From contig NZ_JAUOEK010000116.1 of NCBI RefSeq assembly GCF_030540835.1, forward strand, positions 1 to 44,909: a stretch of 44,909 nt of DNA, in the 5' to 3' direction. The notes below the pieces were generated by a model. That model made no database searches, was not told where the DNA came from, and worked only from the letters and a program-made list of their open reading frames with translations. Position numbers and translations under genes: made by a program. Each line of letters starts with the position of its first letter. Positions within the stretch are counted from its first letter, which is position 1. This stretch comes from Flavivirga aquimarina (GTDB lineage Bacteria > Bacteroidota > Bacteroidia > Flavobacteriales > Flavobacteriaceae). Below, in pieces: positions 2,445 to 38,832 of the stretch.

Positions 2445-2795
2445 CTATTCCGTATGCAACCAAGCCTTCTTCTCAAGTAAAGTCTCTTCAGATTCAACAT
2501 GATCTTCATCAGGAACACAACAATCAACAGGGCAAACCGATGCACATTGCGGTTCGTCATGAAAGCCTTTACACTCAGTACACTTATCAGGTACAATAAA
2601 ATAAAACTCATCAGAAACAGGGTCGTTTTCGGCATCGGCATCAACTTCGCCACCATTTGGTAAAGTAACCATACCACTTAAAGACGTTTCATCAGAGTAA
2701 GACCATTCCTGATCTGGCTCGTAAATTGCATTGTTTGGGCATTCAGATACGCATGCATCACAATTTATACATTCATCGGTTATTATGATCGCCAT
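2445..2795 (-). CDS. 2[4Fe-4S] ferredoxin, Alvin-type
   Basis: A 116-aa soluble electron carrier. Cluster I ligands are in C9-x2-C12-x2-C15-x3-C19-P. Cluster II follows the Alvin-type pattern C72-x2-C75-x8-C84-x3-C88-P, with further cysteines at 92 and 93. An acidic ~50-residue loop separates the two cluster motifs, longer than in clostridial ferredoxins. It is divergent from korA across a 185-bp gap. In this class, 2-oxoacid:ferredoxin oxidoreductases reduce such ferredoxins. Given the missing NADH module in the adjacent complex I operon, this protein is the obvious candidate to carry electrons from KorAB to NuoI. That link is inference from position and chemistry. Confidence 0.9.
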
Positions 2796-2980
2796 GATTT
2801 ATTTATTTAAAAGAAACGATTTTGTAAAGTTAAATGTCATTTTAAAATATTAATATGATAAATTTCATGTTTCTTCATATAAAATTAAATTACATTTAAA
2901 CCACACATTTCGTATAAATTTATTAAATATTTGGTAAATATTTAATAAATTTAGTTAAAATATTTAATTTTTGGTAAAGG
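2796..2980. promoter_or_regulatory. Divergent promoter region, ferredoxin / korA
   Basis: A very AT-rich 185-bp gap between divergent start codons must hold promoters for both directions. A TTTG at 2930-2933 could be a -33 element for korA, but no exact TAnnTTTG box follows at the right distance. The closest is TAATTTTTG at 2965-2973, which has one extra base. GGTAAAGG just before the korA ATG is a modest ribosome-binding site. Confidence 0.4.
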
Positions 2981-4837
2981 ATGGCCACAACTGAAATAAA
3001 ACACCAACCAGAAGTACTAGAAGCAGTAATTATTAGATTTGTAGGAGACTCGGGAGATGGGATGCAATTAACAGGCACGCAATTTTCTGATACCTCAGCT
3101 ATGTTTGGTAACGATATTGCTACATTTCCTAACTATCCAGCAGAAATTAGAGCCCCACAAGGGAGTTTATATGGTGTTTCAGGATTTCAGGTTCATATAG
3201 GAAGTGTAGAAATTAGTACACCCGGAGATGAGGTAGATTTATTGGTAGCCATGAACCCGGCCGGATTAAAAACGAACTTGCATGCCGTTAAGCCCGGGCA
3301 TACCATTATAGTAGATACAGATGCCTTTACCAAAAAGAACTTAGAAAAAGCACAATACGATAGCAATCCATTAGAAGATGGAAGCTTAGAAAACTATAGA
3401 GTTATCGAAGTAACCATGACTTCCTTAACCAAAGAAGCCTTAAAAGATGTAGAAGGCTTAGATAACAAAAGCATAACCCGAAGCAAGAATATGTTTGCTT
3501 TAGGCATGGTGTATTGGATGTACGATAGATCTACCGATCATACCATAGCCTTTTTTAAGAATAAGTTTAAGACAAAGCCACAACTCATAGAAGCCAATAC
3601 GAAGGTGCTAAATACGGGTTACTACTTTGCAGAAACCTTGGAGCTAATACCTAATTCCTATACCGTTGCCCCTGCAAAAATGGAATCCGGTACATATAGA
3701 ATTATAATGGGTAATACAGCAACAGCCTGGGGGTTTTTGGCAGCATCAGAGAAATGCGGATTAGATTTGTTTTTAGGATCTTACCCAATAACACCTGCAT
3801 CCGATATTCTTCATGAACTAGCTAAACACAAGCACTTTGGCGTAAAAACATTTCAGGCAGAAGATGAGATAGCAGGTATAACCTCAGCCATAGGAGCTTC
3901 CTTTGCAGGGAATTTGGCAATTACTACCACATCAGGACCAGGATTGGCGCTTAAAGGAGAAGCCTTAGGTTTGGCCATGATGATAGAAATGCCTTTGGTG
4001 GTCGTTAATGTTCAACGCGGCGGACCATCTACAGGATTGCCGACAAAAACAGAGCAGTCCGATTTACTTCAAACATTATATGGAAGAAATGGAGAAAGTC
4101 CGGTGATTGTTTTAGCGGCAAGTACACCTTCAAATTGTTTCGACTTTGCCTATGAAGCAGCGAAACTTACTATAGAACACATGACTCCTGTAGTCTTGTT
4201 AAGCGACGGGTATATAGCAAATGGTTCTGCACCATGGAAGATTAAATCAGTTAGCGATATGCCGGACATAAACAATAATATTATTCATAAAGCTAAAGAA
4301 AATTGGCATCCTTATGATAGGAATGAAAAAACGTTGGCGCGCGATTGGGCCATACCAGGAACACCCGGTTTAGAACATCGAGTAGGCGGATTGGAAAAAG
4401 ATCGAATAAGTGGCAATGTGTCTTATGTTCCCGATAACCATGAGTACATGGTAAATATTAGAGCAGAGAAAATTATGCGCGTTCAAAATTCAATTCCCGA
4501 GTTAACTACGGCATTTTCAGATGAAGGCGATTTGCTTGTTATAGGTTGGGGAGGCACCTATGGGTCTTTGTATTCCACAGTAAAGCATATTAAAGAAGAA
4601 GGGTTTAATACCATTGGTTTTGCTCATTTTAATTATATAAATCCGCTGCCTAAAAATACAGCGGAAGTACTAAAACGATTTAAAAAGATCGTCGTATGCG
4701 AATTAAACAATGGTCAGTTTGCAAAAGTGTTGAAATTGAATTTTAATGACTTTAATATTTTGCAGTTTAACAAGATTCAAGGACTACCATTTGGTAATGA
4801 AGAATTAGTTCAAAAATTTAAACAATTGGTAAAATAA
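2981..4837 (+). CDS. korA: 2-oxoacid:ferredoxin oxidoreductase, alpha/gamma fusion (KorA)
   Basis: 618 aa. Residues ~14-200 are the gamma domain (VGDSGDGMQ at ~21-29) fused to the alpha subunit. The alpha part has the YPITPAS motif at ~268-274, which positions 2-oxoacid and CoA in this family, and PSTGLPTK at ~349-356. With KorB it oxidises a 2-oxoacid plus CoA to acyl-CoA and CO2 and reduces ferredoxin. 2-oxoglutarate is the usual substrate for this two-subunit architecture, but sequence alone does not exclude other 2-oxoacids. The korB start follows two bases after the stop, and the nuo genes follow on the same strand, so this is the first gene of the complex I operon. Confidence 0.92.
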   Translation: MATTEIKHQPEVLEAVIIRFVGDSGDGMQLTGTQFSDTSAMFGNDIATFPNYPAEIRAPQGSLYGVSGFQVHIGSVEISTPGDEVDLLVAMNPAGLKTNLHAVKPGHTIIVDTDAFTKKNLEKAQYDSNPLEDGSLENYRVIEVTMTSLTKEALKDVEGLDNKSITRSKNMFALGMVYWMYDRSTDHTIAFFKNKFKTKPQLIEANTKVLNTGYYFAETLELIPNSYTVAPAKMESGTYRIIMGNTATAWGFLAASEKCGLDLFLGSYPITPASDILHELAKHKHFGVKTFQAEDEIAGITSAIGASFAGNLAITTTSGPGLALKGEALGLAMMIEMPLVVVNVQRGGPSTGLPTKTEQSDLLQTLYGRNGESPVIVLAASTPSNCFDFAYEAAKLTIEHMTPVVLLSDGYIANGSAPWKIKSVSDMPDINNNIIHKAKENWHPYDRNEKTLARDWAIPGTPGLEHRVGGLEKDRISGNVSYVPDNHEYMVNIRAEKIMRVQNSIPELTTAFSDEGDLLVIGWGGTYGSLYSTVKHIKEEGFNTIGFAHFNYINPLPKNTAEVLKRFKKIVVCELNNGQFAKVLKLNFNDFNILQFNKIQGLPFGNEELVQKFKQLVK

Positions 4838-4839
4838 TT

Positions 4840-5853
4840 ATGGACACAACGGTTGAAAATAAATATACGTTTAAAGACTTTGCAAGCGATCAGGAAGTTA
4901 GATGGTGCCCCGGTTGCGATGACTATGTTATTTTACGCGCCATGCAAAAGGCACTTCCAGAAATAGGAGTAAAAAAAGAAGATATTGTTTTTATATCAGG
5001 CATAGGTTGTTCCTCTCGTTTTCCATATTATATGGATACCTATGGGATGCATAGTATTCATGGAAGAGCACCAGCCATTGCAACAGGAACAAAATTGGCA
5101 AACCCTAATTTAAGCGTATGGGTTATTACGGGTGATGGAGATTCTATGGCTATAGGAGGAAATCATTTTATACATGCCTTAAGAAGAAATGTAGATTTAA
5201 ATATTTTACTGTTTAACAATGAAATATACGGCCTCACAAAAGGTCAGTTTTCCCCAACCTCTTTAGTAGGACAGAAAACAAAATCGTCACCTTACGGAAA
5301 TACACAACCCCCATTTTCTGCCGGTGAATTAGCCATAGGTGCACAAGCACGTTTTTTTGCCAGAATTGGCGGAAATACACCAAAAGAAATGACCCAGATT
5401 TTTATTGAGGCCGAAAAGTTTAAAGGCACTTCTTTAATAGAAGTCATGCAGAATTGCCCAATTTTTAATGATGGTTGTTTTGACCAATTTACAGATAAGG
5501 CCGTTCGAGCAGATAAGCAGTTGTTTGTAGAACATGGTAAGCCCATGATTTTTGGTAAAGATCGTAATCAAGGGCTTGTTTTAAACGGACTGAAATTAGA
5601 AGTCGTTGCCATTGGAGAAAATAATATTACCGAAGAAGATATCTTGGTTCATGATGCAAAAGAACAAGATCCGACATTACACCAAATGTTGGTTAGATTA
5701 GATTATCCAAAAGTTATGGGAGTTATAAGAAGTTTTAATGATATAACCCTGGAAGAAAGAAAAGATGCGCAAACACAAGAAGTGAAGTCGAATTCTAAAT
5801 TTAGAAAAACGGATGATTTGTTTTTTTCAGGAGACATATACGAAGTTGAATAA
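4840..5853 (+). CDS. korB: 2-oxoacid:ferredoxin oxidoreductase, beta subunit (KorB)
   Basis: 337 aa. The thiamine diphosphate-binding subunit, also expected to bind one [4Fe-4S] cluster. It shows WCPGC at residues 22-26, a further conserved GIGCSSR, the TPP/Mg motif starting GDGDS near residue 98 and ending NNEIYGLT near 126-133, and a late cysteine in the NDGC segment. It forms the catalytic pair with KorA. It is separated from nuoA by only 14 bp with no terminator between, so 2-oxoacid oxidation and complex I are very likely co-transcribed. Confidence 0.92.
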   Translation: MDTTVENKYTFKDFASDQEVRWCPGCDDYVILRAMQKALPEIGVKKEDIVFISGIGCSSRFPYYMDTYGMHSIHGRAPAIATGTKLANPNLSVWVITGDGDSMAIGGNHFIHALRRNVDLNILLFNNEIYGLTKGQFSPTSLVGQKTKSSPYGNTQPPFSAGELAIGAQARFFARIGGNTPKEMTQIFIEAEKFKGTSLIEVMQNCPIFNDGCFDQFTDKAVRADKQLFVEHGKPMIFGKDRNQGLVLNGLKLEVVAIGENNITEEDILVHDAKEQDPTLHQMLVRLDYPKVMGVIRSFNDITLEERKDAQTQEVKSNSKFRKTDDLFFSGDIYEVE

Positions 5854-5867
5854 ATAAAAAAAACCTT

Positions 5868-6218
5868 ATGGGATCTGAAGCTATTATTGTTTTCTTTCTT
5901 GCTGGAGTGGTATTAGTCGCCGGCTCTAATTTTTTATCAAATTTAATTTCACACAAGTCCGATAATGCGCAAAAAAGAGAACCGTACGAAAGCGGTATGA
6001 AAACCATAGGGCCTACATGGGTTCAATTTAAAGTAGGGTACTATCTGTTTGCAATTTTGTTTTTAATTTTTGATGTTGAAGTTGCCTTCTTAGTGCCATG
6101 GGCGGTTGTATTTCAAGATTTTGGAGGCGTTGCTTTTATTGAAATAATCATATTTCTATTCATATTGGGCCTTGGGCTGCTTTATGCTTGGAAAAAAGGA
6201 GCTTTAAAATGGGAGTAG
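5868..6218 (+). CDS. nuoA: Complex I subunit NuoA
   Basis: 116 aa with three membrane segments (~5-25, ~60-82, ~87-108). It has the family motifs EPYESG in the loop after TM1 and FDVEVAFL in TM2. NuoA is a small core membrane subunit near the quinone site, packing with NuoH, J and K. Its end overlaps the start of nuoB by about 10 nt, typical of translational coupling. Confidence 0.95.
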
Positions 6219-6775
6219 ATAACACATATAAAATTCCAGATGATTTTCCCGGAAAAGTAATTCCGGCAGGAAATGGAGCAAATATTGTTGTTACCTCATT
6301 AGATAAAATAATTAATTGGGGGCGCTCAAACTCCCTTTGGTCTTTATATTTTGGAACAAGTTGCTGTGCTATAGAAATGATGCAAACCGGAGCAGCGAGA
6401 CACGATTATTCCAGATTTGGATTTGAAGTTGCACGGCCTTCCCCACGTCAGGCAGATTTAATAATTATTGCAGGAACCATAGTCAATAAAATGGCACCCG
6501 TTTTACGAAGACTTTACGACCAAATGGCAGAACCCAGATACGTTATAGCTATGGGAGCCTGTGCCATTTCAGGAGGACCGTTTTTTTATAACACCTACTC
6601 AGTAGTAAAAGGAGCAGATCATGTTATTCCTGTAGATGTTTATGTACCCGGATGTCCTCCCAGACCAGAAGCATTATTAGAAGGCATGCTTATGCTACAA
6701 GATAAAATTAGAACAGAGAGCATGAAAGATAAAAAGAACCCTATCGAAGGGTTTGATGAAGGCTTTTATAAGTAA
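6209..6775 (+). CDS. nuoB: Complex I subunit NuoB (cluster N2 subunit)
   Basis: 188 aa from the ATG at 6209 (MGVDNTYK). An ATG at 6188 is in frame but would add seven residues unlike the family and a longer overlap with nuoA. N2 cluster ligands are all present: adjacent C52-C53, C118 and C149 in the PGCPPRPE motif. NuoB passes electrons from NuoI to quinone at the NuoD interface, so the quinone-reducing end of the complex is intact here. Confidence 0.95.
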
Positions 6776-6779
6776 TATT

Positions 6780-7328
6780 ATGACTAACGAAGCATTACAA
6801 AAATTAATAAGCAGTTGGTTTCCCAATCCAGAAGCTGGTATAACCCCAGAACCAATTCAGGTTTCTGAAGGAGAAGGCATAGCGGAACCTCAGGAGCCTA
6901 TTAATCCAAGTCTTTTGGAATTTACAGAAGAAGGCTCACAGTTTTTAAATGTTTCGGTAAAACCTGAAAACTTACATGAATTAATGACCCAGTTAAAAGC
7001 TAGTAACGAAACAAGTTTTGATTATTTGTTTTGTTTAAGCGGGGTAGATTGGGGAACAGCATTAGGAGTGGTGTATCATTTAGAATCTACTACATATCGT
7101 CATAGCATAGTTGTAAAAGTAAAAACAGAAGATAGAGAAGATCCAAACTTCGATTCAGTTTGTGATATATGGAGAACAGCAGAATTCCATGAACGTGAGG
7201 TGTTTGATTTTTTTGGTATAAAGTTCCATAATCATCCAAATTTAAAGCGTCTTTTCTTAACAGAAGAATGGGATGGTTTTCCACTTAGAAAAGATTATGT
7301 AGACGAAATAAACATGGTTATTAAATAA
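6780..7328 (+). CDS. nuoC: Complex I subunit NuoC
   Basis: 182 aa from the ATG at 6780 (MTNEALQK). An in-frame ATG at 6753 lies inside nuoB and would add nine unlikely residues. The NuoC signature spans the WRTAEFHEREVFDFFGI segment and the following RLFLTEEWDGFPLRKDY. Residues ~10-45 form a Pro/Glu-rich insertion before the conserved domain. It is separate from nuoD here, not fused as in E. coli. It is a peripheral-arm subunit that docks with NuoD. Confidence 0.93.
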   Translation: MTNEALQKLISSWFPNPEAGITPEPIQVSEGEGIAEPQEPINPSLLEFTEEGSQFLNVSVKPENLHELMTQLKASNETSFDYLFCLSGVDWGTALGVVYHLESTTYRHSIVVKVKTEDREDPNFDSVCDIWRTAEFHEREVFDFFGIKFHNHPNLKRLFLTEEWDGFPLRKDYVDEINMVIK

Positions 7329-7333
7329 AGGTT

Positions 7334-8458
7334 ATGCAAGAAACCACAACCATAAATAATAATTTCAAATCTGAAGAGTATTTCATTAATATGGGGCCTC
7401 AACACCCTGCTACACATGGAGTACTACGTCTTTTATTGACTATAGATGGCGAGATTATTAAAAAGGTAGAACCGGATCTTGGATATATACATCGTTCCAT
7501 AGAAAAAATGTGTGAACGGGACAGCTACCAGCAAATCGTTCATTTAACAGACAGGATGGATTATTTGTCCTCGCATATAAATAACGAAGCTGTTTGCTTA
7601 ACTGTCGAAAATGCCCTGCAATTAGAAATTCCAGAACGCGTCAAGGTTGTTAGAACCATTATTGGCGAACTCACCCGAATAGCGTCGCATTGTTTATGGT
7701 GGGGAGTTATGGGTATGGATGTTGGCGCACTGACTACCTATTTTTATGGGTTTAGAGATCGCGAAATGATCAATGATATTTTTGAAGAAACCTGTGGTGC
7801 ACGATTAACTATGAACTATAACGTACCGGGAGGTTTAATGTGGGATATTCACCCCAATTTCGTTAACCGTGTTAAAGCATTTGTAAAACATTTTAAAACC
7901 AAAATACCAGAATACGATAGACTGCTAACGGGCAATGTGATTTTTCAAAAGAGAACAAAAGGCGTAGGTGTTTTATCCAAAGAAGATGCTATTTCCTTTG
8001 GGGCTTCCGGTCCCGTTGGCCGCGGGTCGGGATACTCATGCGATGTTAGAAAATACCACCCCTATAGCGCATTAGATAAAGTGACATTTAAAGAATCCTT
8101 ACAAACAGCAGGTGATACGTTTGCGAGGTATCAAGTTCGAATTCAGGAAATGTGGCAGTCTTTGTCTATTGTAGAACAGTTAATCGATAATATTCCAGAA
8201 GGAGAACATCGCGTAAAAACAAATGCAGTAATAAAACTACCAAAAGGAGAATTTTATCAAAAAGTTGAAACGGCAAGAGGTGAGCTAGGTGTTTATGTTA
8301 TAAGTACAGGAACAAAAAATCCTTATAGATTAAAGTTTAGATCACCCGGATTTTCCAACCTGTCCTTACTAAATCATATAGCTGTTGGAGGCAAAATAGG
8401 AGATTTAGTAGCAACAATGGCCACATTAGACTTGGTAATTCCGGATATAGATCGATGA
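7334..8458 (+). CDS. nuoD: Complex I subunit NuoD (quinone-site subunit)
   Basis: 374 aa. It shows the family hallmarks GPQHPATHGVLR near residues 22-33, the conserved GYIHRSIEK segment, TDRMDYLSS, and the C-terminal SLLNHIAVGGKIGDLVATMATLD. It is homologous to the large subunit of [NiFe] hydrogenases but lacks the Ni ligands. It starts five bases after nuoC. After its stop the usual nuoE-nuoF-nuoG genes are missing and a 238-bp non-coding gap leads directly to nuoH. Confidence 0.95.
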   Translation: MQETTTINNNFKSEEYFINMGPQHPATHGVLRLLLTIDGEIIKKVEPDLGYIHRSIEKMCERDSYQQIVHLTDRMDYLSSHINNEAVCLTVENALQLEIPERVKVVRTIIGELTRIASHCLWWGVMGMDVGALTTYFYGFRDREMINDIFEETCGARLTMNYNVPGGLMWDIHPNFVNRVKAFVKHFKTKIPEYDRLLTGNVIFQKRTKGVGVLSKEDAISFGASGPVGRGSGYSCDVRKYHPYSALDKVTFKESLQTAGDTFARYQVRIQEMWQSLSIVEQLIDNIPEGEHRVKTNAVIKLPKGEFYQKVETARGELGVYVISTGTKNPYRLKFRSPGFSNLSLLNHIAVGGKIGDLVATMATLDLVIPDIDR

Positions 8459-8514
8459 TAAGAGGTATAGAAAATTAAAATATTAATTTAAAAGAAAATA
8501 ATAATTAGGTTAAC

Positions 8515-8669
8515 GTGAGTTCGAGTTAAGACAAGTTCATTTTAAGGATAAACTCAATAATATTGTTACTTGTCGCCTTGAGCGCAGTCGAAAGGTCATT
8601 AAAATATACAAGTTTAAATAGGTTTCGACTGCGCTCAACCTGACACTCAAATTGTTAAATCGAACTCAC
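8515..8669. repeat. Large inverted repeat where nuoEFG would lie
   Basis: The outer arms GTGAGTTCGAGTTAA (8515-8529) and TTAAATCGAACTCAC (8655-8669) pair with one mismatch. The inner arms TTGAGCGCAGTCGAAA (8578-8593) and TTTCGACTGCGCTCAA (8623-8638) pair perfectly over 16 bp. The element is non-coding. From memory, GAGCGCAGTCGAA palindromes are common intergenic repeats in Flavobacteriaceae. It interrupts an otherwise tightly packed operon between nuoD and nuoH, so the transcript must either read through a long stem-loop or restart. Confidence 0.8.
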
Positions 8670-8696
8670 CTTAGGTTATAAAATAAACTTCGAAAT

Positions 8697-9692
8697 ATGA
8701 GTATTATTGAAATGGTATTGATAGCACTGGTTTATTTAGGGATTTTCTCTGTTGCAGGATTGTTTTTGGTTTTATTAGAAAGACGTGTAGCAGCTTGGTT
8801 TCAATTAAGAATTGGTCCAAACCGTGTGGGCTTTCAAGGACTTTTGCAAACCATGGCCGATGCTTTGAAATTAGTTTCCAAAGAGTTAACAGGAACAGAG
8901 AAAGCAGATAAGTTTCTATACAATTTAGCACCTTATTTTGTGATTATTACAGCCTTAATGGCACTCGGTGTTATTCCATTTACCAAAGATTTTCAGGCAT
9001 TCGATATTAATATTGGCATTTTCTTTTTAATAGCTATTTCATCAATAGGCGTTATAGGTATTTTATTAGGAGGATGGGCCAGTAACAACAAATTTGCTCT
9101 TATTGGAGCTATGCGAAGTGGGGTTCAAACCATTAGCTACGAACTTTCAGTAGGTTTATCACTTTTAACAATGATATTATTAACACGCTCTTTACAGCTT
9201 TCAGAAATTGTAGAAGTCCAAAAAAACGGATGGCTGATTGTTCAAGGGCACATTCCGGCTATAATAGCCTTTATGGTATTTATGATAGCCGGTACAGCAG
9301 AAACTAATAGAGCCCCTTTTGATATGGTAGAAGCCGAATCGGAGCTAGGAGCAGGGTTTCATACCGAATATTCAGGAATGAAATTCGCTTATTTCTTTTT
9401 AGCAGAGTTCATTAATATGTTCCTAATAGCCGCCATAGCAACAACCGTATTTTTTGGAGCGTGGTTATCGCCATTTGGGATTACGGAATCCATACCCTGG
9501 CTGGGCGTTTTTTGGTTCCTATTAAAAACCTTAATACTGGTGTTTTTAATGATGTGGTTTAGATGGACCTTCCCAAGACTAAGAGTAGATCAGTTGTTAA
9601 CTCTGGAGTGGAAATATTTGTTACCTATTAACCTGGTTAATATTGTAATTATGGCATTTGTAGTTTGGCAAAATTTAATTATTCAGTTTTAA
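8697..9692 (+). CDS. nuoH: Complex I subunit NuoH
   Basis: 331 aa with about eight membrane helices. It shows the characteristic ERRVAAWFQLRIGPNRVG loop near residues 29-46 and the acidic ETNRAPFDMVEAESELGAG loop in the middle, which lines the quinone channel and links quinone reduction to proton translocation. It follows a 238-bp gap and the inverted repeat. nuoI follows after eight bases. Confidence 0.95.
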   Translation: MSIIEMVLIALVYLGIFSVAGLFLVLLERRVAAWFQLRIGPNRVGFQGLLQTMADALKLVSKELTGTEKADKFLYNLAPYFVIITALMALGVIPFTKDFQAFDINIGIFFLIAISSIGVIGILLGGWASNNKFALIGAMRSGVQTISYELSVGLSLLTMILLTRSLQLSEIVEVQKNGWLIVQGHIPAIIAFMVFMIAGTAETNRAPFDMVEAESELGAGFHTEYSGMKFAYFFLAEFINMFLIAAIATTVFFGAWLSPFGITESIPWLGVFWFLLKTLILVFLMMWFRWTFPRLRVDQLLTLEWKYLLPINLVNIVIMAFVVWQNLIIQF

Positions 9693-9700
9693 AAAAGGAT

Positions 9701-10177
9701 ATGAGTTATTTTTCAAATATTTTTTATGGTATAAAAACACTTCTCACAGGAATGCGTGTTACAGGGAAGTATTTTTTAAACTCAAGAAAAGGAGCCATTA
9801 CGCAGCAATATCCAGATAACCGTGGTATCCTTAAAATGTTTGACAGGTTTCGTGGTGAAGTGATTATGCCACACGATGAAAATAACGAACACGCATGTAC
9901 CGGATGTCAGAAATGCGAAATAGCATGTCCAAATGGAACGATTGAAATTATTTGGGACAGAGGTCTTGATGAAGCCACAGGGAAAAAGAAAAAGAAGATA
10001 GATCAGTTTGTTTACCATCTAAGTTTATGCACTATGTGCGGTTTGTGTATAGATGTTTGTCCGACAGATGCTATTGAATGGGGGCAGAATTTCGAGAATT
10101 CTGTTTATGATAGAACAGCATTAACCAGAGTTTTAAATAAACCCGATTCTAAAATTAGACCCGGGGTAGAAGATTAA
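9701..10177 (+). CDS. nuoI: Complex I subunit NuoI (2[4Fe-4S], N6a/N6b)
   Basis: 158 aa from the ATG at 9701. An in-frame ATG at 9665 lies inside nuoH, and AAAAAGG just before 9701 supports the shorter start. Two ferredoxin-type motifs are intact: C66-x2-C69-x2-C72-x3-C76-P and C110-x2-C113-x2-C116-x3-C120-P. In a 14-subunit enzyme NuoI receives electrons from NuoG. With NuoEFG absent from this operon, NuoI would be the exposed entry point, and a soluble ferredoxin is the likely donor. A basic patch (GKKKKK, residues ~94-99) lies between the motifs and could serve acidic ferredoxin docking; that is inference. Confidence 0.95.
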   Translation: MSYFSNIFYGIKTLLTGMRVTGKYFLNSRKGAITQQYPDNRGILKMFDRFRGEVIMPHDENNEHACTGCQKCEIACPNGTIEIIWDRGLDEATGKKKKKIDQFVYHLSLCTMCGLCIDVCPTDAIEWGQNFENSVYDRTALTRVLNKPDSKIRPGVED

Positions 10178-10182
10178 TAATT

Positions 10183-10710
10183 ATGGAACGCATCCTATTT
10201 TACATATTGGCCTTAATAATAGTCATTTTCGCCATTGCAGCAGTAAGTAGCCGTAAAATGTTACGCTCGGTTATTTACCTGTTATTCGTACTTTGTAGTA
10301 TAGCAGGTCTTTACTTTTTAATCGATTATAATTTTCTTGCGGCCATTCAACTTACAGTTTACGCCGGAGGGATTATAGTACTCATTATTTTCTCTGTGCT
10401 TCTGGTTCATCATATCGAATTAGAATTAGAACTGGCAAAACCACTTAAACAGATTATCACAGCCTTAGCCTGTTTGGTTGGAATAGGGGTGATTTTAACA
10501 ACCATTTACTCCTATGATTTTAAAGTTATAGAAAATGATACGGCTATAACCACTGCCGATGTTGGCTCGAAACTATTAAGTTACGATCAAGGGGGATTTA
10601 TTTTACCTTTTGAAGTGATTAGTGTGGTTTTATTAGCAGCCATGATTGGAGCCATTATTATTGCTAAAGGGAAGCAGGTTGAAAAGCATGAAAACAAAAG
10701 AATAGAATGA
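10183..10710 (+). CDS. nuoJ: Complex I subunit NuoJ
   Basis: 175 aa with five predicted membrane helices. The conserved segment RSVIYLLFVLCSIAGLYFLI at residues ~27-46 and YAGGIIVLIIFSV in TM3 match NuoJ. It carries part of the central hydrophilic axis near the quinone-proximal end. Its stop overlaps the nuoK start (ATGA). Confidence 0.93.
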   Translation: MERILFYILALIIVIFAIAAVSSRKMLRSVIYLLFVLCSIAGLYFLIDYNFLAAIQLTVYAGGIIVLIIFSVLLVHHIELELELAKPLKQIITALACLVGIGVILTTIYSYDFKVIENDTAITTADVGSKLLSYDQGGFILPFEVISVVLLAAMIGAIIIAKGKQVEKHENKRIE

Positions 10711-11024
10711 TACAGGGCATTAGTATATACGAGATCTTAACAGTAACAACAGTGTTGTTTTTTATTGGTGTTTATGGATTTCTTACAAGAAAGAACCTAA
10801 TATCTATGTTAATTTCTGTAGAGCTTATTTTAAATGCCTCCGTCGTAAACTTTGTAGTTATAAACAAGTATTTGTACCCAGATATGTTGCAAGGCGCAGT
10901 TTACGCCATTTTTATAATAGCAGTGGCTGCAGCAGAAACAGCACTGGCAATATCTATTATTATTAATCTTTATAGGCAAATAAACTCTGTTGAGGTTAAA
11001 GATACTGAAGTTATGAAGCATTAA
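10707..11024 (+). CDS. nuoK: Complex I subunit NuoK
   Basis: 105 aa with three membrane helices. The family motif MLISVELILNA near residues 34-44 contains the conserved glutamate in TM2, and VAAAETALAISIII in TM3 carries the second. It overlaps nuoJ by four bases, which indicates translational coupling. It is an antiporter-type proton-path subunit. Confidence 0.95.
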   Translation: MIQGISIYEILTVTTVLFFIGVYGFLTRKNLISMLISVELILNASVVNFVVINKYLYPDMLQGAVYAIFIIAVAAAETALAISIIINLYRQINSVEVKDTEVMKH

Positions 11025-11035
11025 TTATTAAATAA

Positions 11036-12955
11036 ATGGACATCAGTTACATCATATTAATTCCGATAATTCCACTCGTAGTATTCTTGCTACTCGGAAT
11101 TTTTAATCAGAAAATTAAACCTGGTATTTCAGGTTATGTAGGTGTTTTTGGGTTATTGGCTTCAACAACGCTATCATTTTATGCAGCCTATCAATACTTC
11201 TTTGTTTATGGTAAAGTAGATGGTGTTTTTCAAACATTTTCAGAAAAAACAGTTTGGATGAATTTTACAGACACCCTTCATATAGATATGGGTATTTTAG
11301 TAGACCCTATATCTGTTATGATGCTAGTCGTAGTATCTGTGGTATCACTTATGGTGCATATGTATAGTAGAGGCTATATGAAAGGGGATGAAGGTTATAC
11401 CAAATTCTTTGCTTTTTTATCCCTATTTACATTTTCTATGTATGGGTTGGTGTTGGCAACTAATCTGTTTCAGATTTATATATTCTGGGAACTGGTAGGC
11501 GTTTCATCGTACCTGTTAATAGGCTATTACTATACCAAAACGGCGGCTATCGCTGCGGCAAAAAAGGCATTTATAGTAACACGGTTTGCCGATTTCGGAT
11601 TCTTGATTGGCATATTGATTATTGGATTCTATACCGGAACATTCGATTTTGAAACATTAAACAACCCCGAAGGAAGTGTTATACTAAATTGGGCAGCAAC
11701 CTCTTTTATGGGATTGTCGGTAATCACTTGGGCATTGATACTCATATTTATAGGAGGTGCAGGGAAATCAGCTATGTTTCCACTACATATTTGGTTGCCG
11801 GATGCTATGGAAGGGCCAACACCGGTTTCAGCATTAATTCATGCAGCTACCATGGTTGTTGCAGGGGTCTTTCTAGTAGCAAGGTTATTCCCTATGTTCT
11901 ATTTTGTGGAAGATGGTTTTGCTTTAAATATAGTGGCCTATGTGGGTGCATTTTCAGCATTATTTGCAGCCATTATTGCGATAACACAAACAGATATCAA
12001 GCGCGTTTTGGCATTTTCAACCATGTCTCAATTAGGTTATATGATGCTGGCTTTAGGCGTTTCTGGTTACGAAGGGCATGAAGGTGTTGGTTATATGGCA
12101 TCTATGTTTCATTTGTTTACACATGCCATGTTTAAGGCGCTTCTGTTTTTAGGAGCAGGCTCAGTAATTCATGCTGTGCATAGTAATTATTTAAAAGATA
12201 TGGGAGGCTTGCGTAAATATATGCCCATAACCAATATTACTTTTTTAATTGCGGCTTTAGCTATTGCAGGCGTTCCGCCATTAGCCGGATTTTGGAGCAA
12301 GGATGAAATATTAGTTGCAGCTTTCGAGCACAATAAACTAATCTATTATGTGGGAGTTTTTGTAGCGGGATTAACAGCGTTTTATATGTTTAGAATTTAT
12401 TTTGGCATCTTTTGGGGAAAGGAAAGAACCTACGACCATAAACCAAAAGAGTCACCTTTGTCAATGACGCTACCTTTAATTGTACTAGCGTTTTTAAGTG
12501 TTACTGCCGGATTTATTCCATTTAGTGAATTTGTAACAGCAGATAAAGCTGGTTTTGAAGCCCATTTGAATTATCCATTAGCAGCTGTGGCGACAGGTGT
12601 TGGGTTGATAGGAATTGTATTGGCATGGATCTTTTATAAAAATGAAAACAGTTTATCCGATAGATATGCGAAAGCATTTGGACCGCTTTATAAATGGGCA
12701 AGCGATAAATTTTATTTTGATGAGATTTATATGTTCGTAGCTAAGAAAATTTTGTTTAAACGCGTGTCTGAACCCATAGCAAAATTTGATAAAAAATATG
12801 TTGACGGTACTATGGTCGGTATAGGCAATAAGACGGTATTAACATCAAAAAAAATAAAAGGAATACAATCTGGGAAAGTTCAGGATTATGCTTTTGCATT
12901 TATTGCAGGCGTTGTTGTATTAGCTTTAGTGTTTATTTATTTATGGCCAAACTAA
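11036..12955 (+). CDS. nuoL: Complex I subunit NuoL (proton pump)
   Basis: 639 aa, the largest membrane subunit, homologous to Mrp antiporters. It shows the core segments GAGKSAMFPLHIWLPDAM and EGPTPVSALIHAATMVVAG near residues 240-280, the discontinuous TM7 loop and a further lysine-bearing TM12 region. A long C-terminal lateral helix region (~520-610) ends in a last membrane helix. It is the distal proton-pumping module and is complete here. Confidence 0.95.
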   Translation: MDISYIILIPIIPLVVFLLLGIFNQKIKPGISGYVGVFGLLASTTLSFYAAYQYFFVYGKVDGVFQTFSEKTVWMNFTDTLHIDMGILVDPISVMMLVVVSVVSLMVHMYSRGYMKGDEGYTKFFAFLSLFTFSMYGLVLATNLFQIYIFWELVGVSSYLLIGYYYTKTAAIAAAKKAFIVTRFADFGFLIGILIIGFYTGTFDFETLNNPEGSVILNWAATSFMGLSVITWALILIFIGGAGKSAMFPLHIWLPDAMEGPTPVSALIHAATMVVAGVFLVARLFPMFYFVEDGFALNIVAYVGAFSALFAAIIAITQTDIKRVLAFSTMSQLGYMMLALGVSGYEGHEGVGYMASMFHLFTHAMFKALLFLGAGSVIHAVHSNYLKDMGGLRKYMPITNITFLIAALAIAGVPPLAGFWSKDEILVAAFEHNKLIYYVGVFVAGLTAFYMFRIYFGIFWGKERTYDHKPKESPLSMTLPLIVLAFLSVTAGFIPFSEFVTADKAGFEAHLNYPLAAVATGVGLIGIVLAWIFYKNENSLSDRYAKAFGPLYKWASDKFYFDEIYMFVAKKILFKRVSEPIAKFDKKYVDGTMVGIGNKTVLTSKKIKGIQSGKVQDYAFAFIAGVVVLALVFIYLWPN

Positions 12956-12964
12956 GCAAGTAAT

Positions 12965-14452
12965 ATGGATATTTTATCACTTTTTATAGTTGTACCGGTA
13001 CTAACCATTTTGGTTTTAGTGTTCACTAGAAACCTAAAACAGGCGCGTTTGGTTTCAGTGGTTGGAAGTCTTGTTCAACTTGGAATGGCTATTAATCTGG
13101 TATTTGCTTATTTAAAAGAACGTGCCATTAATAGCGATATCATGGTGTTTACCAAAGATGTTGTTTGGTTCGAACAATTTAATATTCATTATACGATTGG
13201 TGTAGATGGTATTTCGGTAGCACTATTATTGCTAACAGCCATTGTAGTACTTGCGGGTGTTTTTATTTCCTGGAAAATGTACGACCTCCCTAAAGAGTTC
13301 TTTATTTCTTTAATAGTTTTATCTATTGGTGTTTACGGATTTTTTATTTCAATAGACCTCTTTACCATGTTTGTGTTCTTTGAAATTGCCGTAATACCTA
13401 TGTATTTGCTTATAGGTATTTGGGGATCCGGGCCAAAGGAATATTCTGCTATGAAATTAACCTTGATGCTCATGGGGGCTTCAGCAGTTTTGTTAGTAGG
13501 TATTTTAGGTATTTACTTTAATTCGAATGCAGACGGAGGAGCACTAACCTTTAATATATTAGAAATAGCTAAAGCGAACATCCCTTTTGAAGTACAAAAA
13601 TTATTTTTCCCACTTACTTTTATAGGGTTTGCGGTTATCGGAGCCTTATTCCCATTTCATACCTGGTCGCCAGATGGTCATGCCTCAGCCCCAACAGCCG
13701 TATCCATGTTACACGCAGGTGTGCTTATGAAATTAGGAGGGTATGGTGTGTTTAGAGTAGCCATGTATTTATTGCCCGAAGGCGCTTTACATTGGTCATG
13801 GATATTTATAATTCTATCCGTTATCGGAGTCGTTTATGGCGCGTTTAGTGCTATTAAACAAACCGATTTAAAGTATATCAATGCATATTCATCAGTAAGT
13901 CATTTAGGCTTAGTCCTATTTGCGTTATTAATGTTGAATAAAACAGCATGGAACGGGGCTATTTTACAGTCCTTGTCTCATGGATTTATGACGGCACTGT
14001 TTTTCGCATTAATCGGGATGATATACAGTAGAACACATACGCGGGATATTACCAAACTAGGCGGACTGCTTAAAGTGATTCCGTTTATATCGGTCATATA
14101 TGTTATAGCAGGTTTGGCTTCATTAGGTTTGCCCGGGTTTAGCGGATTTGTTGCTGAAATGAACATATTTGTTGGTGCCTTCCAACAAGAGGGTCTGTTT
14201 ATGAGGATTGCTACCATACTATCGGTTTCAGTTATTGTAATTACCGCAGTATATATTTTACGAGTTGTTGGCATCATGCTTATGGGACCAATTAAAAATG
14301 AGTCTTATTTAACATTGGAAAAAGTAACATGGTACGAAAGATTTGGAATTTTATTATTACTCATTCCAATAGTGGGTATCGGTGTAGCACCGCTTTGGCT
14401 GAGTGATATGATTTTAGAAAGTTTACAACCTTTTATTCAAGGTCTATTGTAG
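12965..14452 (+). CDS. nuoM: Complex I subunit NuoM (proton pump)
   Basis: 495 aa with about 14 membrane helices. Signature PFHTWSPDGHASAPTAVSML and HAGVLMKLGGYG near residues 232-262, and the conserved glutamate in TM5 within FFEIAVIPMYLLIG. Antiporter-like pumping subunit between NuoL and NuoN. Nine bases separate it from nuoL. Confidence 0.95.
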   Translation: MDILSLFIVVPVLTILVLVFTRNLKQARLVSVVGSLVQLGMAINLVFAYLKERAINSDIMVFTKDVVWFEQFNIHYTIGVDGISVALLLLTAIVVLAGVFISWKMYDLPKEFFISLIVLSIGVYGFFISIDLFTMFVFFEIAVIPMYLLIGIWGSGPKEYSAMKLTLMLMGASAVLLVGILGIYFNSNADGGALTFNILEIAKANIPFEVQKLFFPLTFIGFAVIGALFPFHTWSPDGHASAPTAVSMLHAGVLMKLGGYGVFRVAMYLLPEGALHWSWIFIILSVIGVVYGAFSAIKQTDLKYINAYSSVSHLGLVLFALLMLNKTAWNGAILQSLSHGFMTALFFALIGMIYSRTHTRDITKLGGLLKVIPFISVIYVIAGLASLGLPGFSGFVAEMNIFVGAFQQEGLFMRIATILSVSVIVITAVYILRVVGIMLMGPIKNESYLTLEKVTWYERFGILLLLIPIVGIGVAPLWLSDMILESLQPFIQGLL

Positions 14453-14474
14453 AAATTAAAATAAAAAACAACGC

Positions 14475-15902
14475 ATGGATTTAAGTACCTTTTTATTGAT
14501 GAGACACGAAATAGTCCTCTTGGTAGTTATTTTATTGCTTATTATTGGCGAGGTTTTTATTGCTGAAAGTAAAAAAAGCAGTATGGTTCATTTAGCCGTT
14601 TTTTTATTTGGCATTCACACCTTAATAGGGTTTTTAAGCATCGATTACGGAAGCCTTTTTGGAGGCATGTTTCATACCAACGCATTAATTCAGTTTTTGA
14701 AGAATGTACTCAATATTGGAGTCCTTATTTTATTATTGCAATCAGGTGACTGGCTACAGGAAAAGATTATTCGGGTAAATAGAGGTGTTGAGTTTTTTAT
14801 ACTACTATTTTCATCACTTTTGGGCATGTATTTTATGATTTCTGCCGGAGATTTTCTTATGTTTTACTTAGGGTTAGAATTATCGACACTTCCGGTTGCA
14901 GCATTAGCAGCTTATGATATAACAAAACGAATATCAAGTGAATCTGGAATTAAACTAATTTTGTCTGCTGCTTTAGCATCAGGCGTATCGTTATTTGGAA
15001 TTTCCATGCTATATGCTACCACAGGTTCTATCTATTTTACAGAAATTAGTTATGTTATTACCGCAGATAATTTAACTGTTTTAGCATTTATTTTGTTCTT
15101 TACAGGCTTGGCGTTTAAGATTTCATTAGTTCCTTTTCATTTTTGGACAGCTGATGTTTATGAAGGCGCTCCAATAAGCATTGCGTCTTATTTATCTGTA
15201 ATTTCTAAAGGAGCTGCTGTTTTTATATTAATGATTTTACTATTTACCGTACTAAAACCCCTGATGCATATTTGGGAAAACATGGTTTATATTATTGCTA
15301 TTGTTACCATGTTTATTGGTAACCTATTTGCGCTTAGGCAGCAGAATATGAAGCGGTTTTTGGCTTTTTCATCTATTGCACAAGCAGGATTTATTTTATT
15401 AGGGTTAATCACAGGAGACCAGTTAGGAACAGCCACAGTAGTTTATTTTTTACTGATTTATATTTTCTCTAATCTGGCAGCATTTGGAGTTGTACAGGCT
15501 ATTTCATTAGAAACAGGTAAAGAGCAGATGAAAGATTATGAAGGGCTATATAGAACAAACCCCAACTTAAGCCTTATTATGATGTTAGCGTTATTTTCCT
15601 TGGCTGGAATCCCTCCGGTAGCAGGGTTTTTTGGTAAGTTCTTTCTATTTACTGCTGCTGCAAGTAAGGGGTACTATTTATTGGTATTTTTAGCTGTGGT
15701 TAACGTAACCATTTCACTATACTATTATTTGTTGGTTGTAAGAGCTATGTTTTTAAGGAAAAGTGATAATGCGATCCCTTATTTTAAAAGTAAGGTATAT
15801 ATGAGATTGGGGTTGTTAATTACGGCAATTGGCATTCTAGTCATTGGGATATACAGTCCGATATATGATTATATTTATGAGTTGAGCAGAAACTTATTGT
15901 AA
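14475..15902 (+). CDS. nuoN: Complex I subunit NuoN (proton pump)
   Basis: 475 aa with about 14 membrane helices. It shows the antiporter-family segment VPFHFWTADVYEGAPISIAS with SVISKGAAVF near residues 220-250, and LSLAGIPPVAGFFGKFFLF later. It is the third pumping subunit, next to NuoK. With L and M it completes the membrane arm, so loss of E, F and G is selective for the NADH module. Confidence 0.94.
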   Translation: MDLSTFLLMRHEIVLLVVILLLIIGEVFIAESKKSSMVHLAVFLFGIHTLIGFLSIDYGSLFGGMFHTNALIQFLKNVLNIGVLILLLQSGDWLQEKIIRVNRGVEFFILLFSSLLGMYFMISAGDFLMFYLGLELSTLPVAALAAYDITKRISSESGIKLILSAALASGVSLFGISMLYATTGSIYFTEISYVITADNLTVLAFILFFTGLAFKISLVPFHFWTADVYEGAPISIASYLSVISKGAAVFILMILLFTVLKPLMHIWENMVYIIAIVTMFIGNLFALRQQNMKRFLAFSSIAQAGFILLGLITGDQLGTATVVYFLLIYIFSNLAAFGVVQAISLETGKEQMKDYEGLYRTNPNLSLIMMLALFSLAGIPPVAGFFGKFFLFTAAASKGYYLLVFLAVVNVTISLYYYLLVVRAMFLRKSDNAIPYFKSKVYMRLGLLITAIGILVIGIYSPIYDYIYELSRNLL

Positions 15903-15912
15903 ATTAAAAACT

Positions 15913-16251
15913 ATGGCATTAACAGGAAGACATACATTTGGAAGCATTGAAGATACCAGAGTTACGTTTGTAGAAAAGGGAGCAAGCGCAAATAGAAAAG
16001 ACTTTCTGAAAAAATTATTAGAATATAATGGTTTTGAAGTCCTTATTCAGGAAGATAAAAAGAAGGCAGAAGAAGACCCTCAACTCTATACAGTGGCTGT
16101 AACCGATATGGTTTTTAACCCAACGATATGGGTGTTCCAACGAAAGCTCGAAACTTTTGATGGAAAAAAAGTAACCCAAGATTATTGGAATCAAGAAACT
16201 GAAAATGCCAAACCTCAATATTGGAATAATGGGAGTAGCCCCAAAAAGTAA
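15913..16251 (+). CDS. Conserved hypothetical protein at the end of the nuo operon
   Basis: 112 aa, soluble, with no cysteines. I do not recognise a named domain. It has a conserved-looking start (TGRHTFGSIEDTRVTFVEKGA) and a lysine/glutamate-rich middle. It begins ten bases after nuoN with no terminator between and is followed at once by a strong terminator, so it is the last gene of the operon. A role in assembly or regulation of the complex is possible but is only position-based. Confidence 0.8.
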   Translation: MALTGRHTFGSIEDTRVTFVEKGASANRKDFLKKLLEYNGFEVLIQEDKKKAEEDPQLYTVAVTDMVFNPTIWVFQRKLETFDGKKVTQDYWNQETENAKPQYWNNGSSPKK

Positions 16252-16515: not shown

Positions 16516-16845
16516 ATGGTTGACGTTACAATAAATATAACGGACAGAGAAGGAAAAAAACATGAAATTTTAGCCCCTACCGATATGGCGATGAACCTTA
16601 TGGAAGTTGTTAGGTCTTACGAGTTAGCACCAGAAGGTACTATAGGTGTTTGTGGTGGTATGGCTATGTGTGCCTCATGTCAATGTTATGTGAATTCAGA
16701 TCATAAACTCCCCGAAATGTTAGACGATGAAGAAGCTATGCTATCGGAGGCTTTTGATGTAAAAGAAAATAGTCGTTTAGGTTGCCAGATACAAATGACG
16801 CCGGAAATGGAAGGTCTAGAAGTAGAGCTAGCTCCAGAGAGTTAA
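16516..16845 (+). CDS. [2Fe-2S] ferredoxin, adrenodoxin/ISC type
   Basis: 109 aa. Ligands are C46-x5-C52-x2-C55 and C90, the adrenodoxin-type spacing, in the segment GVCGGMAMCASC. The C-terminus is acidic. Such ferredoxins serve Fe-S cluster assembly or oxygenases. Its place right after the complex I operon raises the option that it works with it, but it has its own promoter-like box and the preceding operon is terminated, so the two may be unrelated. Confidence 0.9.
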   Translation: MVDVTINITDREGKKHEILAPTDMAMNLMEVVRSYELAPEGTIGVCGGMAMCASCQCYVNSDHKLPEMLDDEEAMLSEAFDVKENSRLGCQIQMTPEMEGLEVELAPES

Positions 16846-34690: not shown

Positions 34691-35800
34691 TTATACTTTG
34701 CTAATAGTATGAATACTAACTTCATTATGTTTTCCTTTTAATAATACCTTTCCTAAGAATTTAGAGGACAAATACCTTTCAATTTTTAGATTTTTCAATA
34801 ATTTTTCAGATATCAATAAAGAGACTTTATACGTGTTACATTCACTCTGTATACGGGCAGATGTATTGATGACATCTCCATGGTATGCTAATTCTTTTTT
34901 TACAATACCAACTTCTGCTACCATTAAAGTACCTCCATGTAACCCTGCTTTGAATATTGGTGTAACGCCATATTTTTTCATGTAGTATTCTTTTTTAGTG
35001 TGTAGTTTATGGGTGAATGCAAAAAATAATTCTACACAATTATTGTTCACCAACCCTTTTTTGTATGGCCAACTTATCACGGCTTCATCACCTACATATT
35101 GATATATTTCAGCATCATATTTCGGAACGACTTCATTTAAATCTAAAAAGCAATCTTGAATAAGTTGACTATATTTTAAATGCCCAAGTTCTTCTGCATA
35201 GGTGGTTGAGGATTTTAAATCCAGAAACATAAAAATGCGTTTTTCCTCTTTAGGTTCCCTATATTTTCCGAATAGCATTTTAAGAAAGACACCTTTACCA
35301 AATTTATCATTGGCTATCTTAATAAATGAAAACACTATGGAAGCAATAAACGTATATATAATAGCGGCTCTAAAAACTAAGCTATTTCGCCACCATCCAA
35401 ACTCAATATTAAGCTCTAGGCCTAAAGCTGTATTAGCAATACTCCTTACAAAAGTGGAAATAAAGACTATAAACAAGAAATAAAGAAAGGTGCTTAAAAA
35501 AATATTAAACCCCATAGAAAATCTTTTTGAAAAATATTTTTCCAAACCAAATTCTATATTGGCATAGATGACCCCCATTAAAAAGCCAGAAAGGGCAAAT
35601 AGCATAACCTTTATCCTTAAATCGGCATTTATATCCAATCCGTTTGCTTCTTTTATCGAACTGTCCTCAAAAATACCATAGTACCTAAAAACAGCAAAAA
35701 AAGCCATCGCAATAGTCCAGAATAAAACCGATTGCCAAAGAGTTCTTGTGTACTGCTTCATGAGTTTAATCCAATCGTTTATTTTGAGCTGATTAATCAT
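34691..35800 (-). CDS. Membrane class III adenylate/guanylate cyclase
   Basis: 369 aa. Residues ~15-165 hold about four membrane helices, and the C-terminal ~190 residues are a class III cyclase domain. Metal-binding aspartates are in FMFLDLKSST near 193 and YVGDEAVISW near 237. The transition-state Asn and Arg are in GDVINTSARIQ near 309-316, so catalytic residues look intact. Whether it makes cAMP or cGMP cannot be told by eye. There are no partners nearby. The membrane part could sense a lipid or envelope signal, which is a guess. Confidence 0.85.
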   Translation of the reverse strand: MINQLKINDWIKLMKQYTRTLWQSVLFWTIAMAFFAVFRYYGIFEDSSIKEANGLDINADLRIKVMLFALSGFLMGVIYANIEFGLEKYFSKRFSMGFNIFLSTFLYFLFIVFISTFVRSIANTALGLELNIEFGWWRNSLVFRAAIIYTFIASIVFSFIKIANDKFGKGVFLKMLFGKYREPKEEKRIFMFLDLKSSTTYAEELGHLKYSQLIQDCFLDLNEVVPKYDAEIYQYVGDEAVISWPYKKGLVNNNCVELFFAFTHKLHTKKEYYMKKYGVTPIFKAGLHGGTLMVAEVGIVKKELAYHGDVINTSARIQSECNTYKVSLLISEKLLKNLKIERYLSSKFLGKVLLKGKHNEVSIHTISKV

Positions 35801-35871
35801 TCTTAATAGTTGTATTTAACTTTATGCTTCATAGTCTATATTGGGTTTTTTAATCTTCAATATGTAAATCG

Positions 35872-38827: not shown

Positions 38828-38832
38828 TTTTC

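Follow-up and report, generated by a model that had tools for sequence, protein, structure and literature searches.

A kor-nuo gene cluster of Flavivirga aquimarina probably encodes a ferredoxin-fed complex I without an NADH module

The cyanobacterial and chloroplast NDH-1 is a ferredoxin:plastoquinone oxidoreductase with 11 core subunits and ferredoxin as the donor. In haloarchaea, Nuo has no NADH module and occurs with Fdx and 2-oxoacid:ferredoxin oxidoreductases; ferredoxin is reduced there by KorAB and PorAB and might be reoxidised by the Nuo that lacks NuoEFG (PMC8305020). 11-subunit Nuo complexes without NuoEFG, accompanied by NQR, are reported for Bacteroidales (Bacteroides fragilis, PMC7002350; S24-7, PMC4936053), and the donor is given there as unknown. 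The B. fragilis complex had no NADH activity and its donor is drawn as 'Xred' (PMC7002350); its gene set is printed as NuoABC/DHIJKLMN (PMC11304471). A common donor for 11-subunit complex I was sought without success (Moparthi and Hagerhall, 2011, as told in PMC11238625). Ferredoxin has already been proposed as donor for Nuo without EFG (PMC8305020; PMC3534657; PMC10373932). Thus, the ferredoxin idea itself is not new, and 11-subunit complex I, KorAB and ferredoxin are known kinds. Here we analysed a 44,909-nucleotide stretch of DNA from Flavivirga aquimarina, a member of the Flavobacteriaceae, which belong to the same phylum as the Bacteroidales. The stretch (NZ_JAUOEK010000116.1, the whole of it called the window) is contig C30 of a 5.29 Mb genome which is 99.99% complete. 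It carries a cluster of 2-oxoacid:ferredoxin oxidoreductase and complex I genes.

Open reading frames and family scans showed 14 genes on the same strand, korA-korB-nuoABCDHIJKLMN-orf15913 (2981-16251), with 14 bp between korB and nuoA. We propose, with a probability of about 0.7, that the cluster encodes a ferredoxin:menaquinone proton pump of the 11-subunit complex I kind, fed by 2-oxoacid:ferredoxin oxidoreductases. The gene order agrees with the original prediction, which was made from the sequence alone; it places the right-hand limit at 16251, which coincides with the last position of orf15913, a conserved gene which it left unnamed. The features are as follows.

2445..2795, minus strand: fdx, Alvin/YfhL-type 2[4Fe-4S] ferredoxin, 116 aa, isoelectric point (pI) 4.05; NF033683 over cut-off, PDB matches 2fgo/1blu/2zvs
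2796..2980, no strand: divergent fdx-korA intergenic region, 185 bp, presumed site of both promoters (sequence)
2981..4837, plus strand: korA, gamma and alpha subunits of 2-oxoacid:ferredoxin oxidoreductase fused in one chain, Tyr268 in the YPITP motif; TIGR03710, PDB 6n2n_A
4840..5853, plus strand: korB, beta subunit, thiamine pyrophosphate (TPP)-enzyme domain, Cys23, 26, 57 and 206, GLTKGQ motif; TIGR02177 below cut-off, PF02775, PDB 5b46_B and 6n2n_B
5868..6218, plus strand: nuoA; NF005839, 109 bits, under cut-off
6188..6775, plus strand: nuoB, N2 ligands present, an in-frame ATG at 6209 leaves the start codon uncertain; over the TIGR01957 cut-off with 240 bits
6753..7328, plus strand: nuoC; TIGR01961, 123.1 bits (cut-off 122.45)
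7334..8458, plus strand: nuoD, His28 and Tyr77 of the quinone site retained; over the NF004739 cut-off (428 bits), under that of TIGR01962 (424 bits)
8459..8696, plus strand: nuoD-nuoH gap, the usual place of nuoEFG, with nested inverted repeat (sequence)
8697..9692, plus strand: nuoH; NF004741, 336 bits, over cut-off
9665..10177, plus strand: nuoI, N6a and N6b cysteines, proposed ferredoxin entry; TIGR01971, 90 bits, under cut-off 113
10183..10710, plus strand: nuoJ; NF005168, 96 bits, under cut-off
10707..11024, plus strand: nuoK; NF004320, 89 bits, over cut-off
11036..12955, plus strand: nuoL, Lys244 of transmembrane helix 7 (TM7) kept; TIGR01974, 604 bits
12965..14452, plus strand: nuoM, Ile225 in place of the TM7 lysine; TIGR01972, 426 bits
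14475..15902, plus strand: nuoN, TM7 Lys215 kept; TIGR01770, 365 bits
15913..16251, plus strand: orf15913, soluble protein of 112 aa with no cysteine, candidate for an accessory subunit in this clade of complex I; co-occurrence with nuoD, no family match

All of nuoABCDHIJKLMN are present and full length, i.e. the set of an 11-subunit complex I. The NuoEFG module of a 14-subunit NADH:quinone oxidoreductase is absent, as predicted. The cluster has no room for it: the nuoD-nuoH gap, the largest inside the cluster, spans 238 bp, whereas it measures about 3-4.6 kb in the eight loci used for comparison, which were classed as 14-subunit from the size of this gap. Whole-genome profile searches gave no match for NuoF (PF01512, a family which also covers RnfC) and none for NuoG (PF10588); NuoE was not searched for. 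For this genome a shared NADH module is excluded as far as searched (NuoF, NuoG). The N2 and both N6 clusters were correctly foreseen as intact. NuoB keeps the N2 ligands (Cys59/60/125/156), NuoI both CxxCxxCxxxCP motifs (first Cys 78 and 122) and NuoD the quinone-site His and Tyr. In the clade of related Nuo complexes delineated below, the N6 cysteines were found in 29 of 29 usable NuoI rows (10 rows were without data) and each N2 cysteine in 38 of 39 NuoB rows, the exceptions being gaps and one R.

KorA matched TIGR03710 with 643 bits (cut-off 483), KorB matched TIGR02177 with 237 bits, under the curated cut-off of 262. The fused gamma-alpha family, the YPITP motif and the TPP and iron-sulfur motifs identify KorAB as a 2-oxoacid:ferredoxin oxidoreductase. 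In a PDB sequence search the nearest solved relatives were 6n2n (A and B chains) and 5b46 (B chain); the names on these chains are both 2-oxoglutarate and general 2-oxoacid. 6n2n, which we take to be the two-subunit 2-oxoglutarate enzyme of Magnetococcus marinus, has the same fused gamma-alpha and beta subunits and the same TPP and iron-sulfur motifs, whereas the KorB reported here is 45 residues longer and korAB is clustered with a putative pump. The ferredoxin gene, which diverges from korA at a distance of 185 bp, is of the Alvin type as originally stated: its product scored 97.9 bits with NF033683 (YfhL family, cut-off 86) and its best solved chains were 2fgo, 3exy and 1blu, the latter presumably the Allochromatium vinosum ferredoxin. 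It is acidic, and NuoI is mildly basic (pI 8.4).

The conservation of the cluster was examined in a family sample of 120 Flavobacteriaceae genomes from 119 genera and in named loci, the best 80 of at least 594 found via KorB. The locus count was 99 including the window, after removal of duplicates L088 and L102 and of L054, which lacks korB. A KorA of the window's type exceeded the cut-off in 18 of the 120 family genomes; in one (G033) it was 53% identical and without korB beside it. NuoD scored at least 276 bits in 13 genomes, and two more had weak partial matches only. In all 13, nuoA was located at most 260 bp behind korB. The same korAB-nuo order recurred among the 80 named loci, and overall nuo was linked to korAB in 42 distinct loci, some of them outside the family (metagenome-assembled genomes, MAGs, titled Cyclobacteriaceae, L108 and L119, and Saprospiraceae, L113; such labels are fallible). 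The 13 family genomes and 42 linked loci dispose of the cluster as a single-genome quirk. The order recurs across Flavobacteriaceae and, going by the MAG titles, beyond them; it is not peculiar to one flavobacterium. Not every nuo operon of the family is of this kind: in one genus (g120, phylum sample) NuoD is of another type (E about 1e-134 to 1e-138), and the two operons examined from this genus, L259 and L207, have the 14-subunit layout with a nuoD-nuoH gap of about 3 kb. KorB relatives with 56-59% identity in loci titled Sulfuricurvum, Acidobacteria and Sericytochromatia (L146, L148, L134, L139) point to transfer or to mis-binned contigs.

A korB at least 75% identical was present in 48 loci, and in 43 of these the sequence continues for at least 2 kb behind it. 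Over the first 2 kb these 43 had nuo in 28 cases, rnf in 8, both in none and neither in 7; L080 is a ninth rnf locus (less than 2 kb after korB). In all nine (L062, L063, L077, L080, L081, L083, L094, L101, L104) the rnf genes are convergent, with rnfA nearest and at most 2 kb from korB; rnfBCDGEA was confirmed by families in L062. The surroundings were maintained. Of the 39 loci, window included, that combine a korB identity of at least 75% with 800 bp upstream, 37 had a divergent fdx next to korA, and nifJ was beside fdx in 27 of 36 testable loci (16/24 nuo loci, 8/8 rnf loci; NifJ of L062 scored 1739 bits with TIGR02176). At 55-75% korB identity, nuo was found in 9 of 46 loci, rnf in 0, divergent fdx in 10 of 44 and nifJ in 0 of 9. 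Rnf oxidises reduced ferredoxin (PMC12174285). Two different pumps, both apparently ferredoxin-capable, thus alternate at one place while korAB, fdx and nifJ are kept around them. Because nuo and rnf share one slot and Rnf oxidises ferredoxin, this Nuo may oxidise ferredoxin as well; we consider the alternation the strongest comparative argument for this. Rnf resembles the proposed complex in energy-conserving ferredoxin oxidation beside the same korAB; it differs in that it consists of other proteins and has NAD+ as acceptor. The window's genome has no RnfC, as PF01512 has no match there.

The relationships of the Nuo complexes were examined with a FastTree phylogeny of NuoB, D, H, L and M from 53 loci (midpoint rooting). 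A clade of 39 loci stood apart from the remaining 14, of which six are of the 11-subunit form and eight have the 14-subunit layout (support 1.0, branch 0.63). This long branch and the low NuoD identity, 37-41% to the eight loci of 14-subunit layout, led us to reject the idea that a 14-subunit operon lost its nuoEFG recently. The six other 11-subunit loci, which are from the phylum and from outside the window's class (L260-L262, L264, L265, L268), also lack an EFG gap between nuoD and nuoH; unlike the clade they form a separate branch (support 1.0), have neither korAB nor orf15913 and keep the NuoM lysine considered below. Two loci inside the clade and of the same class as the Bacteroidales, L266 and L267, have NuoC and NuoD in one frame like B. 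fragilis as printed (PMC11304471), a likeness of described gene layout. They too have lost the NuoM lysine, and unlike the window they have no korAB and no orf15913. Presence is patchy even inside one genus: G019, of the window's own genus, has no KorA of this type, no nuoD and no orf15913. In the genomes of family f4 (L199-L202) two NuoD matches each were seen, one of them of this clade with orf15913.

The three pumping subunits had been called intact. They are full length; the description fails at the TM7 lysine of NuoM, the equivalent of E. coli K234 in the Glu-Lys ion pair, which is replaced by Ile225 (codon 13637-13639). In the clade this position is I in 18, L in 16 and F in 4 rows, i.e. 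38 of 38 rows are without K; outside it, K was found in 12 of 12 others of the phylum (the outgroup alignment has 13 rows, all K, of which that of L209 is a mis-picked NuoL). The three PDB chains shown, 8qby_M, 6hum_D and 7wff_D, also have K, and the TM7 stretch aligns gap-free up to FHTW. The scan covered columns nearly invariant in the outgroup; some 29 differ in the clade, mostly by mild changes, and the TM7 lysine is the sole one at a known catalytic residue. NuoM keeps the partner Glu140, TM8 Lys256 and TM12 Glu398, and the TM7 lysines of NuoL (Lys244) and NuoN (Lys215) are retained. Hence the TM5 Glu-TM7 Lys pair, a general feature of complex I and not a mark of the 11-subunit form, is incomplete in one of the three antiporter-like subunits. 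The clade alignment has no other fixed Lys or Arg in or near NuoM TM7. A reverse scan brought up clade-specific charges elsewhere, e.g. NuoM Lys373 (script numbering), none of which was shown to compensate. An extra Lys is present in TM5 of NuoM in L199-L202. In the NADH-linked complex I of P. denitrificans the equivalent ion pair is reported to be essential for catalysis (PMC9802314). Yet E. coli NuoN K217A had about half the oxidase activity and retained 68-109% of pumping (PMC13073174), which would caution against over-reading the loss. Therefore, either coupling differs in this clade or the Glu-Lys pair is less universal than thought.

A second peculiarity is orf15913. A protein search detected it in exactly the 13 family genomes with nuoD and in 0 of the 107 others; by random placement such a match has a probability of about 1e-17, shared descent ignored. 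It was present in 26 of 50 named genomes examined: in 25 of 27 with nuo next to korAB, the two exceptions (L099, L112) being MAGs whose contigs end inside nuo, and in 1 of 23 others (L107), which has nuo and the orf at another place. In the phylum sample 10 of 296 genomes had orf15913, all ten just behind nuoN of this clade, and 264 had NuoD at E <= 1e-60. H7, R28, F31, L32, L36, N39, F68, N69, Q94 and Y103 are invariant in 43 sequences. The window's copy is hydrophilic, near neutral and without cysteine; that of L199-L202 has an Ala/Pro-rich insert. No NCBIfam model and no Pfam model over cut-off matched, and when all 43 members were compared with Pfam the hits were scattered, the best being at E 0.0043 in two members. 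A PDB sequence search yielded nothing better than E 0.26. An AlphaFold model from the 43-sequence alignment reached pLDDT 83 and pTM 0.72 (an earlier one from 13 sequences, pLDDT 52), with a strand-strand-helix-strand-strand core. Foldseek against PDB found nothing at E <= 0.001 (best 0.43) and no NDH subunit among the 50 rows shown, a missing match being no proof of a different fold. An NdhS-type ferredoxin-docking subunit was thus not recognized, no Pfam model having matched over cut-off. From co-occurrence, orf15913 is probably a cofactor-free subunit or an assembly factor of this complex I clade, i.e. a candidate twelfth subunit. A docking role is a guess.

How might the complex operate? 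KorAB, in most relatives also the neighbouring NifJ, would oxidise a 2-oxoacid to acyl-CoA and reduce the divergently encoded 2[4Fe-4S] ferredoxin. Reduced ferredoxin would dock at NuoI, which is exposed for want of NuoEFG, and electrons would move via N6a, N6b and N2 to menaquinone at NuoD/NuoB. The membrane arm would then pump protons. Since the driving force from ferredoxin to menaquinone exceeds that from NADH to menaquinone, pumping would be feasible. NADH would be handled by Na+-NQR, as suggested by NqrF alone, which is encoded in the genome. NADH thus has another entry, and the earlier claim that it is bypassed as such is not supported. Nor is there support for KorAB as a replacement of 2-oxoglutarate dehydrogenase in the oxidative step of the tricarboxylic acid cycle: a SucA-type protein (SucA C-domain, 922-aa frame) is encoded at G000:C107, and one was found in 116 of the 120 family genomes. 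Therefore, KorAB is not the sole route and was ruled out as the only 2-oxoglutarate oxidase; it may offer a second exit for 2-oxoglutarate beside SucA. A pump dedicated to 2-oxoglutarate is likewise not supported, with the pyruvate enzyme NifJ beside the same ferredoxin in 27 of 36 loci and 5 of 18 KorA genomes without NuoD. The ferredoxin-fed pump of the original prediction is the reading best backed by comparison, i.e. by the korAB/fdx/nifJ neighbourhood and the nuo/rnf alternation.

Several observations weigh against this proposal. The window itself belongs to the nine loci without nifJ beside fdx. KorAB, fdx and nifJ persist without this nuo in the 7 of 43 loci which have neither pump next to korB, and 5 of the 18 family genomes with KorA lack NuoD. 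Conversely, 7 of the 39 clade loci have no korAB next to nuo (none in the locus in L199-L202, L266 and L267; nuo apart from its korAB in L240); the korAB-nuo link is therefore common, not universal. Nuo and rnf are not mutually exclusive genome-wide, as RnfC is encoded elsewhere in 4 of the 13 nuo genomes (G003, G032, G116, G047). The presence of SucA and the loss of the NuoM lysine, which speaks against an unmodified pump, have to be added. Finally, PF01512 found some match in 8 of the 13 nuo genomes; six (G025, G031, G047, G082, G088, G116) encode NuoF-like proteins with a length of 551-620 aa, so that in those relatives a shared NADH module is not strictly excluded. None of the six exceeded any NuoF cut-off; together with the one in G236, also under cut-off, they were rejected as true NuoF. 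Their partners, scanned in L272, L275, L276 and L279-L282, were formate dehydrogenase (over cut-off in L280 and L282, under it in L279, where the frame ends with the stretch), an adjoining [FeFe] hydrogenase (L275) and adjoining HoxU/VhuG-like proteins (L272, L276, L281). Judged by these neighbours (L272, L275, L276, L279-L282), several nuo-bearing relatives handle formate or hydrogen. G116 further carries a second, distant NuoD/C/B/L-like set (L070, 1069-7833), perhaps a membrane-bound hydrogenase or formate-lyase type complex. In five korAB loci with neither pump adjoining korB (L074, L075, L078, L079, L105; titled Maribacter, Ulvibacterium, Lutibacter and Flavobacteriaceae) the ferredoxin may serve something else.

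Three alternatives were considered. KorAB might dock directly on NuoI/NuoC, perhaps via orf15913, and replace NuoEFG in a fixed 2-oxoacid:menaquinone supercomplex. The linkage in 42 loci and the tight korB-nuoA spacing (14 bp; counted from the last matched codon, 17 bp in the window and 2-25 bp in sixteen other loci) would fit. However, KorAB occurs without nuo and nuo without adjoining korAB, and even where rnf is the neighbour, korAB comes with a separate gene for ferredoxin; we regard the supercomplex as unlikely. Less probable still is another low-potential donor, e.g. the 2Fe-2S ferredoxin encoded at 16516-16845, a flavodoxin or an FNR-type flavoprotein, with KorAB nearby for reasons of descent alone. 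Members of the clade in which nuo has no korAB next to it would agree with this, as would a protein of the FNR/BenC/MmoC-reductase kind directly before nuoA in the korAB-less L199 (6770-7489, 239 aa, 38 bp upstream, under every cut-off), perhaps another electron input; it is countered by the korAB-nuo order, which 42 distinct loci share, among them MAGs titled Cyclobacteriaceae and Saprospiraceae. Equally improbable is reverse flow, in which proton-motive force would drive electrons from menaquinol to ferredoxin and KorAB/NifJ would serve biosynthesis by carboxylating succinyl-CoA or acetyl-CoA: SucA already provides an oxidative route and both enzymes are reversible in principle, yet nothing in the cluster points to CO2 fixation (reductive tricarboxylic acid cycle markers were not searched for). 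Two other types of enzyme did not match either. All listed models of F420H2 dehydrogenase (Fpo) remained under cut-off in the window, and the CxxC pairs of group 4 [NiFe] hydrogenases are not in NuoD, which matches NuoD families.

Compared with the haloarchaeal Nuo, likened here by description and not by sequence, the ferredoxin-fed complex proposed for F. aquimarina has kor and nuo in one cluster with its own ferredoxin and orf15913, rnf can replace nuo in relatives, the NuoM TM7 lysine is lost, and SucA and NqrF coexist. Cyanobacterial and chloroplast NDH-1 differ in that the lysine is present in NdhD (6hum_D); none of the NdhS-type Pfam models is matched by orf15913. Among the titles and abstract beginnings listed in literature searches, none mentioned the kor-nuo cluster, the nuo/rnf exchange, orf15913 or the NuoM change; subscription papers on complex I diversity (reportedly Spero 2015 and Degli Esposti 2016) possibly do.

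Some features of the surroundings complete the picture. The nuoD-nuoH gap contains nested inverted repeats with 33-nt and 19-nt arms (8511-8673) and a strong predicted RNA fold (z -5.4); their 16-base core, in both arms, was found nowhere else in the window. They look like a mobile or regulatory intergenic element. The scan listed no terminator-like site in this gap, and the promoter scan was uninformative (43 promoter-like sites, 59 expected). The 2Fe-2S ferredoxin gene at 16516-16845 lies just past orf15913; L205 and L206 likewise have such a gene directly behind orf15913, and in the nuo-less loci L062, L067, L078, L081, L094 and L101 one is found at most some 8 kb from korAB. An ordinary-looking set on the minus strand (34691-41931) encodes an outer-membrane efflux protein, an HlyD-like adaptor, two ABC ATPases, two ABC-2 permeases and a cyclase-domain protein.

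Taken together, a bolder picture can be drawn, which we offer as tentative and doubtful in its entirety: a working complex I clade without the NuoM TM7 lysine, with orf15913 as its own twelfth subunit at the face left by NuoEFG, driven by 2-oxoacids and ferredoxin with altered coupling, and evolutionarily interchangeable with Rnf. The gene order, the nuo/rnf alternation and the neighbouring ferredoxin name a testable donor and testable donor enzymes for 11-subunit complex I, and Flavobacterium cellulosilyticum (L086) and Lutibacter agarilyticus (L093), both nuo-bearing, are cultured strains in which testing is possible. In the lost NuoM lysine, nature provides a test for present models of how complex I pumps protons, and orf15913 may be an overlooked complex I subunit.

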